NCBI RefSeq assembly: GCF_006517275.1
Contig: NZ_CP041191.1
Span: forward strand, 5,885,001 to 5,949,000
DNA: 64,000 bases
DNA from: Labrenzia sp. PHM005
GTDB taxonomy: Bacteria; Pseudomonadota; Alphaproteobacteria; Rhizobiales; Stappiaceae
Direction of reading: 5' to 3'
Position numbers and translations under genes: made by a program
Shown here: piece after piece, positions 40,804 to 43,476 of the stretch
Layout: the number at the start of each line of letters is the position of its first letter
How positions within the stretch are numbered: position 1 is the stretch's first letter
Notes under the pieces: model-generated
The model's database searches: none
What the model saw: only the letters and a program-made list of their open reading frames with translations
Told to the model about the DNA's origin: nothing

Positions 40804-41199
40804 TCAACCCTCTTTGGGAACGGGACGTGGTTTGCCGTTTTCGTCGACGGCAACCATGGTGAAGATGGCTTCCGTTACCTTCTCGCGTCCGCCGAAGCGA
40901 TGCCGGAGCGCCCAAGCCTCCAGCTTGATTTCCATGGAGCTGGTGCCGACCCGGCCAACGCTGGTGTAGATGCACAAGACATCTCCGACATGCACGGGCC
41001 GGATGAATTTCATCTTATCGACCGCGATGGTCACCACACGACTTGACGCCCGTTGTCCGGCCGCAATCCCGCCCGCCAAGTCCATTTGCGACAGAACCCA
41101 GCCGCCAAAAATATCGCCATTGGCGTTGGTATCTGCTGGCATAGCCATGGTGCGCAGGGTTAGTTCGCCGTACGGCTGTTCTTCACTCAATGCGGTCAC
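40804..41199 (-). CDS. yciA: Acyl-CoA thioesterase, YciA type
   Basis: A 131-aa hotdog-fold thioesterase. The family signature is visible: DTNANGDIFGGWVLSQMDLAGGIAA (active-site Asn/Asp region), then VTIAVDKMKFIRPVHVGDVL. It hydrolyses acyl-CoA esters to free acid and CoA, probably managing CoA pools. It lies downstream of the small membrane protein genes on the same strand, with a 58-bp gap; common regulation is possible but not shown. Confidence 0.92.
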   Translation of the reverse strand: MTALSEEQPYGELTLRTMAMPADTNANGDIFGGWVLSQMDLAGGIAAGQRASSRVVTIAVDKMKFIRPVHVGDVLCIYTSVGRVGTSSMEIKLEAWALRHRFGGREKVTEAIFTMVAVDENGKPRPVPKEG

Positions 41200-41257: not shown

Positions 41258-41362
41258 TTAGATAATCAGCATCAGGATCGCCATAATCCAGAGCGGCATA
41301 GGCGCGGCAACCCAGATCAGCAACACTGGCAGTCCCCGATGGATCCAATTCGAACGGTTCAT
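41258..41362 (-). CDS. 34-aa single-helix membrane microprotein
   Basis: A 34-codon frame: MNRSNWIHRGLPVLLIWV then AAPMPLWIMAILMLII. A short polar N-terminus with two positive charges is followed by hydrophobic residues that can form one or two helices. A strong ribosome-binding site, AGGAGT, sits seven bases upstream. It begins 17 bp after the 72-aa membrane protein gene, in a three-gene unit with the truncated haemoglobin. The function is unknown, but its placement suggests a membrane partner of that unit. It is too short for routine gene calling. Confidence 0.6.
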   Translation of the reverse strand: MNRSNWIHRGLPVLLIWVAAPMPLWIMAILMLII

Positions 41363-41379
41363 CGTTTTACTCCTTTCGC

Positions 41380-41598
41380 TCAGGAAACCGGCAATTCGAA
41401 AATCGTAAGACCGGCAAGTGCGAGCATACCCACCGCAAACGCCAGTTTGGCGCTGCCCAGTAGCGTGCGCCCGGCAATGTCCAGTCTCGGCAAGGGCAAA
41501 GATCTGGAATCGAGATACATGGACACCATCATCGTGATGAAGACAGTGAACCAGACAACAACCATGGCTTCAGCAGCCAAAACGATTGCCGGTAACAT
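41380..41598 (-). CDS. 72-aa two-helix membrane protein of the haemoglobin operon
   Basis: A small inner-membrane protein with two helices, MVVVWFTVFITMMVSMYL and LAFAVGMLALAGLTIF, joined by a basic loop (DSRSLPLPRLDIAGR). The ribosome-binding site AGGAGGGG is 4-5 bases upstream, and the start is 12 bp after the haemoglobin stop. I recognise no family. Being between the haemoglobin and the 34-aa membrane protein, it may tether or service the haem protein at the membrane. Confidence 0.75.
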   Translation of the reverse strand: MLPAIVLAAEAMVVVWFTVFITMMVSMYLDSRSLPLPRLDIAGRTLLGSAKLAFAVGMLALAGLTIFELPVS

Positions 41599-41610
41599 GA
41601 GCCCCTCCTA

Positions 41611-42084
41611 TCAGGCTTTGTTGGAAAAAAGGTCCGCAGGCGGTTCGCTGCCGGCCATGCCGAAAGTGGCAAGCCAAAGGCTCTGCGCGATCCGCTCCGC
41701 GATGATGATGATCTCGTCTGCAAGCTCCGGAATGAAGACTGACCGGGTCACCGGCCTGAAAACACTCAACCATTGCGCATAGTCTGAGCTAACAACTTCT
41801 TTCAGCTTCAAATGCGCCGGTACCGGTTTGCCCTTGTAAGTCCCGTTCTTCAAAAGCACCGACTGCCAAAAGGTCTCCATCTTGGCCAGATGTTCCGGCC
41901 AACGTCCGTCGAGCCGAGTTTCGAAAATCTTGCCGAGCCGGGCGTGAGACCGGATTGTTCCATAAAATGAATGCACGAGGATGTGGATCGTCTCGGGATC
42001 CACTTCAGTGTATTGACGGCTTGGCGCATCGTCTGCGCGAAAGACATCGCCATCCCAATCACCGCTCATATTGTCCATCTGCAT
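41611..42084 (-). CDS. Group III truncated haemoglobin
   Basis: A 157-aa truncated haemoglobin (trHb3, also called the P group). The B-helix segment ILVHSFYGTIRSHARLGKIFE holds the distal tyrosine; FWQSVLLKNGTYKGKPVPAH contains the proximal haem histidine. Members bind O2 and NO and several are induced by nitric oxide. ATG 42084 has AGGG five bases upstream; alternatives at 42078 and 42069. The start is 11 bp from an NsrR-box-like palindrome, and the divergent gene encodes an NsrR-like regulator, so NO control is likely. First gene of a three-gene unit. Confidence 0.92.
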   Translation of the reverse strand: MQMDNMSGDWDGDVFRADDAPSRQYTEVDPETIHILVHSFYGTIRSHARLGKIFETRLDGRWPEHLAKMETFWQSVLLKNGTYKGKPVPAHLKLKEVVSSDYAQWLSVFRPVTRSVFIPELADEIIIIAERIAQSLWLATFGMAGSEPPADLFSNKA

Positions 42085-42095
42085 CGCGCCCTAAT

Positions 42096-42118
42096 AACAT
42101 TCATTTCAAATGCATCTT
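42096..42118. promoter_or_regulatory. NsrR-box-like palindrome, site 1
   Basis: Left half AACATTCATTT, one spacer base, right half AAATGCATCTT. It agrees with the NsrR consensus (AANATGCATTT, one base, AAATGCATNTT) at nearly every position. It sits directly upstream of the haemoglobin start. Confidence 0.75.
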
Positions 42119-42142
42119 TTAAATGACAGATCTTCACGCTAA

Positions 42143-42165
42143 AATCAACATCTAAAATGAATGTT
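42143..42165. promoter_or_regulatory. NsrR-box-like site 2 (half conserved)
   Basis: The right half AAATGAATGTT matches the NsrR half-site at all but one position; the left half is poor. It overlaps a TAAAAT hexamer and lies 15 bp from the regulator start, so autoregulation is plausible. Confidence 0.5.
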
Positions 42166-42179
42166 TTAAAGAGACCCAT

Positions 42180-42590
42180 ATGCGCTTGAGCCAAGCCAGC
42201 GATTTTGCCTTGAGAATTCTGATGGCAATCTGCCAATCCGACGCCCCGCAAACCGTCGATAAATTGACCCTTCAACTCGGCCTGGCCAAATCACATGTCA
42301 TGAAGATCGTCGCCCAGCTCGCGAAAGCCGGTTACCTGGAAACGACTCGCGGCCGTGGCGGCGGGATCCGAATTGCCAAAAGCCCCGAAGAAATCCGGAT
42401 CGGAGAGGTCGTCCGGTTGATCGAACCAGATTTGGGGGTGGTCGCCTGTTTGAAAGACGAGCCAACCTCTTGCCCGTTTTTACCGCGCTGCGCCCTCAAA
42501 GGCGCTATGGCGAACGCTGCCGAAGCTTTTCTCGACAGCTTGAACGCACAGACCCTTGATACAATTCTGGCCGGAACCAAAAGAATTTAG
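42180..42590 (+). CDS. nsrR: Rrf2-family regulator, NsrR-like
   Basis: A 136-aa iron-sulphur-type repressor. The start MRLSQASDFALRILM leads into a winged helix with LGLAKSHVMKIVAQLAKAG. Three cysteines in CLKDEPTSCPFLPRC (spacing C-X7-C-X5-C) are positioned to hold the Fe-S cluster sensed by NO in NsrR. IscR and RirA are alternatives but fit less well given the neighbouring haemoglobin and the box match. It is divergent from the haemoglobin unit, and its 3' end overlaps the convergent crp/fnr gene by 4 bases. Confidence 0.85.
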   Translation: MRLSQASDFALRILMAICQSDAPQTVDKLTLQLGLAKSHVMKIVAQLAKAGYLETTRGRGGGIRIAKSPEEIRIGEVVRLIEPDLGVVACLKDEPTSCPFLPRCALKGAMANAAEAFLDSLNAQTLDTILAGTKRI

Positions 42591-43276
42591 AGCGTGGATG
42601 CCTGTTCCAGGAATTCGACCTGTTCCAGACAGTAGTAGCCGGAAATCCGGCTGATCGTGCCCGCTCTTTTCCAGTCGTTCAACACACGGCTGACATTCTC
42701 CCGCGCGGCACCCGCCATATTGGCAATGTCGGCCTGGCTGAGTTTGTAGTGAATCAGAACGCGGCCATTGTCGAGCGGTTTGCCAAAGGTTTCAGATAGC
42801 TGCAGCAGGGTCTGCGCCACCCGGCCCGGCAAAGGAAGGAACGACCTTGCCGCAAGTACATCATTAGCCTGGCGGAGCCGCTTGCCGACGATGGACAGCA
42901 TGTGGCGGTAAACAGCGGGATTTTCGTCGGCGAACCGCTCAAACCCAGCCTTTTCGATAAACGCCAGCTGCGCGTCTTTCAGTGCACTGACCGTTGCGGA
43001 CCGTGGCCGGCCATCGAGAAGCGCCAGTTCACCTACAAGATCACCCGGTCCCAGAACGGCCAGCAATTGTTCATCGCCGTCAATGGACAGAATTGAAACC
43101 TTGAGAGAGCCCTCCAGAACAGCGTAACAGCCGTTTCCTGGCGCGCCATTTTCAAACAATATCGCACCGGCTGCCAATTTCATCGGCCGGGCAAGGCGCG
43201 ATAGATCACGCGCAAGATCAGGAGCAAGCCCTTGAAGGGAAAAGCTATTTTTAAGAAAATCCTTGATTTCCGCCAC
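42587..43276 (-). CDS. Crp/Fnr-family transcription regulator
   Basis: A 229-aa regulator. The cyclic-nucleotide-binding-type beta roll includes GDLVGELALLDGRPRSATV and the C-terminal winged helix reads LSQADIANMAGAARENVSRVL. No N-terminal cysteine cluster is present, so it is not an oxygen-sensing FNR; GELALLDGRPRSA matches cAMP-pocket residues (E-L, R-S), so cAMP binding is possible. GTG 43276 has AGGGGG six bases upstream; a TTG at 43309 would add eleven residues. A CRP-type palindrome at 43335 suggests autoregulation. Confidence 0.88.
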   Translation of the reverse strand: MAEIKDFLKNSFSLQGLAPDLARDLSRLARPMKLAAGAILFENGAPGNGCYAVLEGSLKVSILSIDGDEQLLAVLGPGDLVGELALLDGRPRSATVSALKDAQLAFIEKAGFERFADENPAVYRHMLSIVGKRLRQANDVLAARSFLPLPGRVAQTLLQLSETFGKPLDNGRVLIHYKLSQADIANMAGAARENVSRVLNDWKRAGTISRISGYYCLEQVEFLEQASTL

Positions 43277-43334
43277 ATTTACCCCCTGCCAGTCCCACTG
43301 GCGACACAATCTTCGCCGCGCATTTACGCATTCC

Positions 43335-43425: not shown

Positions 43426-43459
43426 AAAAACGGCTCTGTCCCCCCCAGAGCCGTTTTTT
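43426..43459. terminator. Terminator of the ChbG/glycosyltransferase operon
   Basis: Stem CGGCTCTG / CAGAGCCG, 7-base loop, A5 on the left and T6 on the right, so it can act in both directions. It is about 20 bp beyond the stop of the ChbG-like gene. Confidence 0.88.
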
Positions 43460-43476
43460 CGTTTCTAAAGCCAAAG

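Follow-up and report, generated by a model that had tools for sequence, protein, structure and literature searches.

Two paired membrane microproteins behind NsrR-type operators, with a group III truncated haemoglobin as their usual companion, in Labrenzia and other Alphaproteobacteria

A 64,000-nucleotide stretch of the genome of Labrenzia sp. PHM005 (contig NZ_CP041191.1, positions 5,885,001 to 5,949,000; hereafter the window, to which all coordinates refer) was found to carry a compact unit of four genes and two operators. The source genome comprises 6.19 Mb and is labelled G000. On the minus strand the unit encodes, in this order, a group III truncated haemoglobin (trHb3), a 72-amino-acid protein (p72) and a 34-amino-acid protein (p34), and it diverges from the gene of an NsrR-like regulator of the Rrf2 family. 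The preferred interpretation, held at a little short of an even chance, is that this is a nitric oxide (NO)-stress operon in which p72 and p34 form a complex at the respiratory chain, with the globin beside it where one is encoded. The pair looks like an NsrR-controlled membrane module of its own with trHb3 as its usual companion, and more than a globin anchor, since five pairs lie without an adjacent globin and one clade has kept the globin while losing the pair. The features of the unit are as follows.

42180..42590, plus strand: Rrf2-family regulator, NsrR-like, 136 amino acids, divergent from the globin gene (assigned by Pfam, PDB and NCBIfam)
42143..42165, no strand assigned: NsrR-type operator 2, 14 bp 5' of the Rrf2 start codon
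42096..42118, no strand assigned: NsrR-type operator 1, 11 bp 5' of the globin start codon
41611..42084, minus strand: trHb3, 157 amino acids (assigned by PDB entry 2ig3, by sequence and by fold of the model)
41380..41598, minus strand: p72, predicted two-helix membrane hairpin of an undescribed family (assigned by homologs, AlphaFold model and pN/pS)
41258..41362, minus strand: p34, predicted single-helix membrane protein of an undescribed family (assigned by pairing with p72, motif and pN/pS)

The three minus-strand genes are separated by gaps of 12 and 17 bp, and the two operators are spaced 47 bp apart. An earlier note on this DNA had described this gene set, these gaps, the divergent Rrf2 gene and two NsrR-type boxes, all of which are present in the sequence. 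The note had also credited each gene with a strong ribosome-binding site, which is the case for p72 and p34 (AGGAGGGG and AAGGAG) but not for the globin, whose site is weak (TTAGGG). In 17 of the 23 genus loci measured, the start of p72 precedes the stop codon of the globin gene, and this overlap of reading frames argues for a single transcript.

Within the genus, p72 was present in 30 of 45 genomes. All 30 also carried, beside p72, the globin, p34, the Rrf2 gene and an NsrR-type box scoring at least 18/22, the score being the number of matches out of 22 to the NsrR consensus of Escherichia coli. Globin status was checked in 14 of the 15 genus genomes without p72 (all but G1047). Four of their loci (L021, L022, L024 and L026), whose globins form one clade, have retained the Rrf2 gene, the box and the globin and have lost both p72 and p34. 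Past the globin stop codon of these loci, only the tail of p34 is left (PLWIM or SLWIM). As judged from its sequence, this remnant marks a deletion in which p72 and most of p34 were lost. At four other loci (L028-L031) the globin lies between genes for a Crp-type regulator and a YciA-type thioesterase without Rrf2, p72 or p34, and at a further four (L032, L033, L039 and L044) there is a globin without the pair or Rrf2 nearby. No globin was found in the genus genomes G031 and G036, which lack p72.

Neither small protein, searched singly, matched a Pfam or NCBIfam family. When 18 p34 and 21 p72 rows were compared with Pfam and NCBIfam at E ≤ 10, only scattered weak matches were obtained, in a search whose filters discard most weak ones, and profile searches of the PDB with p72 and p34 returned chance matches only. 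A Foldseek search with the p72 hairpin yielded two matches at E 6, which were discounted. The closest homologs of p72 are from Roseibium and other Stappiaceae, and homologs carry names from Roseibium, Cohaesibacter, Pseudovibrio, Hyphomicrobium, Shimia and others. These are labelled hypothetical or uncharacterized, with single records named DUF1467 family protein and Copper resistance protein D; neither of these two labels was supported by Pfam scans. AlphaFold modelled p72 as a helical hairpin (helices 2-31 and 41-68) with a mean predicted local distance difference test (pLDDT) score of 91.5. Residues V6, E10 and G57 of p72 are invariant in 21 of 21 rows; in p34, a motif W..[AV]P.PL[WY] is found in most members, and P21, P23 and L24 are invariant in 18 of 18 rows.

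Both small proteins were found to be under purifying selection. The mean ratio of nonsynonymous to synonymous differences (pN/pS) was 0.29 for p72 and 0.27 for p34, and pN was below pS in 210/210 and 136/136 pairs, respectively; 21 of 23 sequences entered the p72 estimate and 17 of 23 the p34 estimate, from which sequences of variant length and the most divergent ones were excluded. These are uncorrected proportions with a high pS. The combined count of lysine and arginine was higher in the p72 loop than at both ends of the protein in 21/21 rows and higher on the N-terminal side of p34 in 16/18 rows. On account of this charge distribution, the p72 loop and the p34 N-terminus are probably cytoplasmic.

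Outside the genus, profile searches followed by locus inspection covered three overlapping samples, with 397 genomes from the order, 385 from the class and 299 from the phylum, and the rows listed for the phylum come mostly from the same order. In the order sample, p72 matches at E ≤ 0.1 were obtained in 19 genomes, from which G183, G293 and G387 were dropped, and p34 matches in 38 genomes, from which 26 weak partial ones were dropped (G044 and G302 after inspection, the others by score). A further search gave 11 genomes, of which G511, G461, G800, G705, G722, G516 and G747 were dropped. The p72-p34 pair was thus recovered in 15 further genomes, giving a total of 45 genomes in seven families (30 in the genus and 15 outside it). 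In all 45, p34 adjoins p72. In G386 and G357, p34 did not score significantly with the first profile and was initially identified from its motif and position; the G357 protein was later matched by a broad profile that had itself been built with it. Among the p72 proteins outside the genus, that of G448 is identical to one from Shimia isoporae, that of G335 to one from Hyphomicrobium nitrativorans and that of G681 to one named uncultured Kiloniella, while that of G384 is 90% identical to one from Pseudovibrio.

A trHb3 gene adjoins the pair in 40 of the 45 genomes, which belong to four families. Outside the genus these are G077, G117, G182, G231, G346, G080, G118, G290, G386 and G335, the last with the reversed gene order p72-p34-globin. 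The partnership between the small proteins and trHb3 is real at the genomic level, and the proposal of the earlier note, which a lack of co-occurrence in related genomes would have overturned, has survived this comparison. In the order sample, the pair was present in 17/397 genomes, 16 of them from the p72 search and G335 from the p34 search, and a trHb3-profile match in 234/397; the match was found in 16/17 genomes with the pair versus 218/380 others (Fisher p 0.0013, relatedness ignored). The pair predicts trHb3, but trHb3 does not predict the pair. At 15 trHb3 loci without the pair, two small hydrophobic open reading frames (ORFs) passed the filter, and neither was p72- or p34-like. In a globin tree of 66 rows, pair-linked globins appear in several places and require seven changes, at least four of them forced by well-supported branches, in a tree with long branches and bootstrap values that had not settled. 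It is barely conceivable that an ordinary NO-controlled globin has been packed by chance with unrelated small ORFs. The many trHb3 genes without the pair would suit that explanation, but the set is conserved in 30/45 genus genomes and in 10 of the 15 pair genomes outside, both ORFs are under purifying selection, and they were deleted jointly.

The globin itself gave no Pfam or NCBIfam name at E ≤ 1. Against PDB sequences, its sole match at E ≤ 1 was 2ig3, the Ctb protein of Campylobacter jejuni (E 3.5e-13). An AlphaFold model built from a 14-row alignment (mean pLDDT 85.2) likewise had 2ig3 as its best fold match, with an E value of 1.3e-6 and a template modelling score to the target of 0.92. 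Residues Y41, H65, H91 and W105 align with positions B10, E7, F8 and G8 of Ctb and are invariant in 14/14 alignment rows. The protein therefore has the sequence and the 2-on-2 fold of Ctb, as far as homology and the model tell, and is a group III truncated haemoglobin, as the earlier note had named it; haem binding and ligand chemistry are predicted.

The divergent gene encodes a protein with a Pfam Rrf2 domain (E 2.7e-29), and the best of its 13 PDB matches was NsrR (5n07, E 6.1e-16). Its NCBIfam scores were 90.2 bits against a cut-off of 182 for NsrR (NF008240) and 88.6 against 193 for RirA. It is called NsrR-like, and not NsrR, because it falls below both of these equivalog cut-offs. The protein has cysteines C90, C98 and C104, the three expected of NsrR, with predicted cluster binding; their x7-x5 spacing is RirA-like. 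Like NsrR and RirA, it combines an Rrf2 fold and three cysteines with an NsrR-type palindrome, but it differs from them in its scores and in that a single operon was found by the pattern search described next.

Operator 1 scored 20/22 and operator 2 15/22 against the E. coli consensus; a consensus of gATGyAT-N5-ATrCATc is given in PMC1274295. A genome-wide search with a pattern modelled on operator 1, which allowed up to two mismatches and which regulon boxes of differing sequence would escape, recovered both operators and one site within an ORF, and the reversed control recovered none. Operator 1 was the only full match to the pattern in the genome. The third site, which sits within an ORF, was dismissed as chance.

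The Rrf2 gene adjoins the globin gene in 27 of the 30 genus loci examined. In all 27, the box before the globin scored at least 16/22 (at least 18 in 26/27) and was accompanied, 47 bp away, by a further match scoring 13/22 or more. No such box precedes the globin at the three genus loci without Rrf2 (L028-L030). Thirteen further loci, 12 outside the genus and one divergent locus within it, were examined over 10-15 kb each, and in 13/13 the best NsrR match of the whole locus fell in the leader of the module. The leaders scored 14-20 with the consensus and 12-14 with the reversed consensus; their limits were drawn by hand after earlier box matches were known, and they are richer in A+T than the loci. 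The near-duplicate loci L102, L105 and L106 were excluded from these 13, and in them too the best match precedes Rrf2 or falls in the interval between Rrf2 and p72. NsrR-type control of the unit, which the earlier note had put forward, is well supported at the sequence level by the two boxes, by the genome-wide pattern search and by the 13 further leaders; NO sensing through an iron-sulfur (Fe-S) cluster is predicted. Alternatively, the pair could be a small system of hydrophobic stress peptides that act on the membrane or as signals and are under this control by coincidence. Tiny hydrophobic proteins without a family match would fit this explanation, but it is very unlikely in view of two co-conserved proteins with an invariant Glu, Gly and P-x-P-L and pN/pS values below 0.3, and of NO-type operators at nearly all loci tested.

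In the preferred interpretation as an NO-stress operon, the NsrR-like Fe-S repressor would, in the absence of NO, occupy both operators in the region that separates its own gene from that of the globin. Damage to the cluster by NO would lead to production of a globin-p72-p34 transcript. p72, with two helices and its basic loop in the cytoplasm, and p34, with one helix and a cytoplasmic N-terminus, would assemble into one small intramembrane complex, which may join or shield a respiratory-chain complex of the inner membrane for as long as NO persists. Where encoded, trHb3 would be held or concentrated at the cytoplasmic face and would remove NO or supply O2 there. The repeated association with trHb3 suggests that the globin usually works with the pair.

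Several observations weigh against this interpretation. No globin gene adjoins the pair in 5 of the 15 pair genomes outside the genus (G360, G384, G357, G448 and G681), and no trHb3 was found in the genome of G357, which is 98% complete. Most trHb3 genes occur without the pair, as seen in the order sample, and the globin clade described above has dispensed with it. In G080, the box is weak (14/22, the same as the control elsewhere in its locus), and no Rrf2 gene was found within its 10 kb. Among 40 proteins from 10 pair loci, Pfam scans identified neither a terminal oxidase nor an NO reductase nor any other NO enzyme; these 40 include two Rrf2 genes, and the remaining neighbours are known as ORF lists only. 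Nothing found links the pair to an oxidase or another respiratory complex. The scanned neighbours comprised metabolic enzymes, transporters, regulators, a peroxidase and, beside the G357 pair, a rhodanese.

In each of the five genomes without an adjacent globin, the pair lies behind an NsrR-type box. The Rrf2 gene diverges from p72-p34 in G360 and G384, and the order is p72-p34-Rrf2 in G357 and G448. In G681, a box of 18/22 lies just upstream of p72-p34, and no Rrf2 or globin gene turned up in the 15 kb read. trHb3-profile matches occur elsewhere in the genomes of G360, G384, G681 and G448. These five pairs without a linked globin argue for a separate target of the pair. At the G357 locus (L104, 4370-6075), the pair shares a strand with a rhodanese-domain gene upstream of it and the Rrf2 gene downstream, and two NsrR-like boxes precede p72.

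Small proteins with one or two helices commonly serve as accessory subunits of respiratory complexes; CydX, CcoQ and DUF2474 are such membrane proteins, 30-75 amino acids long. p72 and p34 resemble them in length and in helix number, but differ in having no match to these families and no oxidase gene among the scanned neighbours. The p72 and p34 rows gave no match to CydX, DUF2474 or similar oxidase microprotein families in Pfam or NCBIfam at E ≤ 10. p34 had been considered as a DUF2474 protein, a look-alike, and no p34 row matched that family. A DUF2474 search gave zero matches in the source genome, but also zero in control genomes, and so carries no weight. For NorE/NorF, no Pfam or NCBIfam match of p72 or p34 pointed there, and no direct comparison with a NorF sequence was made. 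The pair alone might, in principle like CydX, assist a terminal oxidase or another membrane enzyme upon induction by NO, and the globin would share the regulator of the pair without touching it. The free-standing pairs behind NsrR-type boxes and the general character of such accessory subunits favour this explanation, but it is rather unlikely, given that no oxidase was found among the 40 scanned proteins and that adjacency to trHb3 in four families, in reversed order as well, exceeds what shared regulation would need.

A dedicated anchor and redox relay is the other role to be considered. In such an arrangement, the pair would bind the globin, which quinol or a reductase would re-reduce, and the whole would act as a membrane NO dioxygenase. 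The adjacency in 40/45 genomes, the overlapping globin and p72 frames, the predicted location of the basic p72 loop and the p34 N-terminus on the same side of the membrane as the globin, and the invariant intramembrane E10 of p72, which could touch quinone, are all in keeping with it, as is the globin and reductase operon of Legionella under NsrR (PMC1274295). The five genomes without an adjacent globin, G357 without any trHb3 found and the clade that retains the globin after loss of the pair speak against it. Further, no His or Cys is conserved in the alignments of p72 (21 rows) or p34 (18 rows), and the two proteins are unlikely to carry electrons by themselves because they offer no such residue for a cofactor. 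We regard the anchor-and-relay role as decidedly unlikely. Of the roles suggested in the earlier note, delivery of electrons by the small proteins themselves is thus improbable, and anchoring or feeding of the globin finds a basis in the adjacency to trHb3 but does not account for the whole role, considering the globin-free loci and the clade without the pair. The third suggestion, action near terminal oxidases, may hold.

The closest precedent is the glbN-lpg2536 operon of Legionella pneumophila, which encodes a truncated cyanoglobin and a hypothetical ferredoxin reductase and is the sole predicted NsrR target there (PMC1274295; PMC3820574); NO oxidation has been proposed for it (PMC1274295). 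As in Legionella, a truncated-globin operon is here the only predicted target of an NsrR-type regulator. Unlike Legionella, where the partner is a ferredoxin reductase, the present unit combines a globin of group III with two membrane microproteins that bear no cofactor signature. An NsrR ortholog was reported absent from the alphaproteobacterial genomes examined, save Rhodobacter capsulatus E1F1 (PMC1274295). Ctb of C. jejuni is an NO-inducible group III globin under NssR, a Crp-Fnr protein (PMC3820574). It belongs to the same globin group by sequence and fold, and its NO induction has a counterpart in the NO-type operators found here; its regulator, however, is of the Crp-Fnr and not the Rrf2 family, and small membrane proteins are unmentioned for Ctb in the consulted part of that article. 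Neighbours of rhizobial globins are mapped in a supplementary figure of PMC4648194.

Such small proteins with a truncated globin were not found described in titles and abstract beginnings in PMC, a source that leaves subscription journals and preprints mostly uncovered and gives no proof of absence. The earlier note had singled out the unit as a candidate undescribed system. That view needs dividing: an NsrR-controlled truncated-globin operon was already known, whereas the two microprotein families and the free-standing pair are undescribed within this literature scope. The broader proposition is that p72 and p34 are two new, always-paired families forming an NO-inducible, NsrR-controlled membrane module of Alphaproteobacteria that can work without a globin, has repeatedly recruited trHb3 and represents a new membrane-based protection of respiration from NO; we offer it with clear reserve, as a possibility.

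What group III truncated globins do is not settled, and functional uncertainty is acknowledged for Ctb (PMC3820574). A conserved membrane partner under NO-type control is now at hand for them. Natural genomes provide the globin with the pair, the pair without a linked globin and the globin alone, so that the role and the cellular location of the globin are directly testable. The two microprotein families are also given a context and a signal expected to induce them, and the data point to an undescribed membrane partner in bacterial NO defence.

Two neighbouring genes flank the unit:

40804..41199, minus strand: YciA-type acyl-CoA thioesterase, conserved downstream neighbour, 58 bp past p34
42587..43309, minus strand: Crp/Fnr-family regulator, convergent with Rrf2 (Pfam cNMP_binding and HTH_Crp_2)

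The thioesterase scored 155.9 bits against the NCBIfam YciA model (cut-off 162) and is probably outside the function of the unit. The Crp/Fnr gene adjoins the unit in many genus loci. Both genes flank the globin in many genus loci, including L028-L031. Crp-globin-YciA may be the older arrangement, because these flanks persist where Rrf2, p72 and p34 are absent. In the two Pseudovibrio-like genomes G384 and G360 (loci L129, L130 and L134), a Crp gene, a distant globin-like frame, YciA and a trHb3 gene follow one another at a locus apart from p72-p34; the globin-like frame is a profile match with one TGA reported inside it. In the window, a G+C-rich inverted repeat followed by a T run was noted by eye at 43430-43465, in the gap beside the Crp/Fnr gene, and resembles a terminator.

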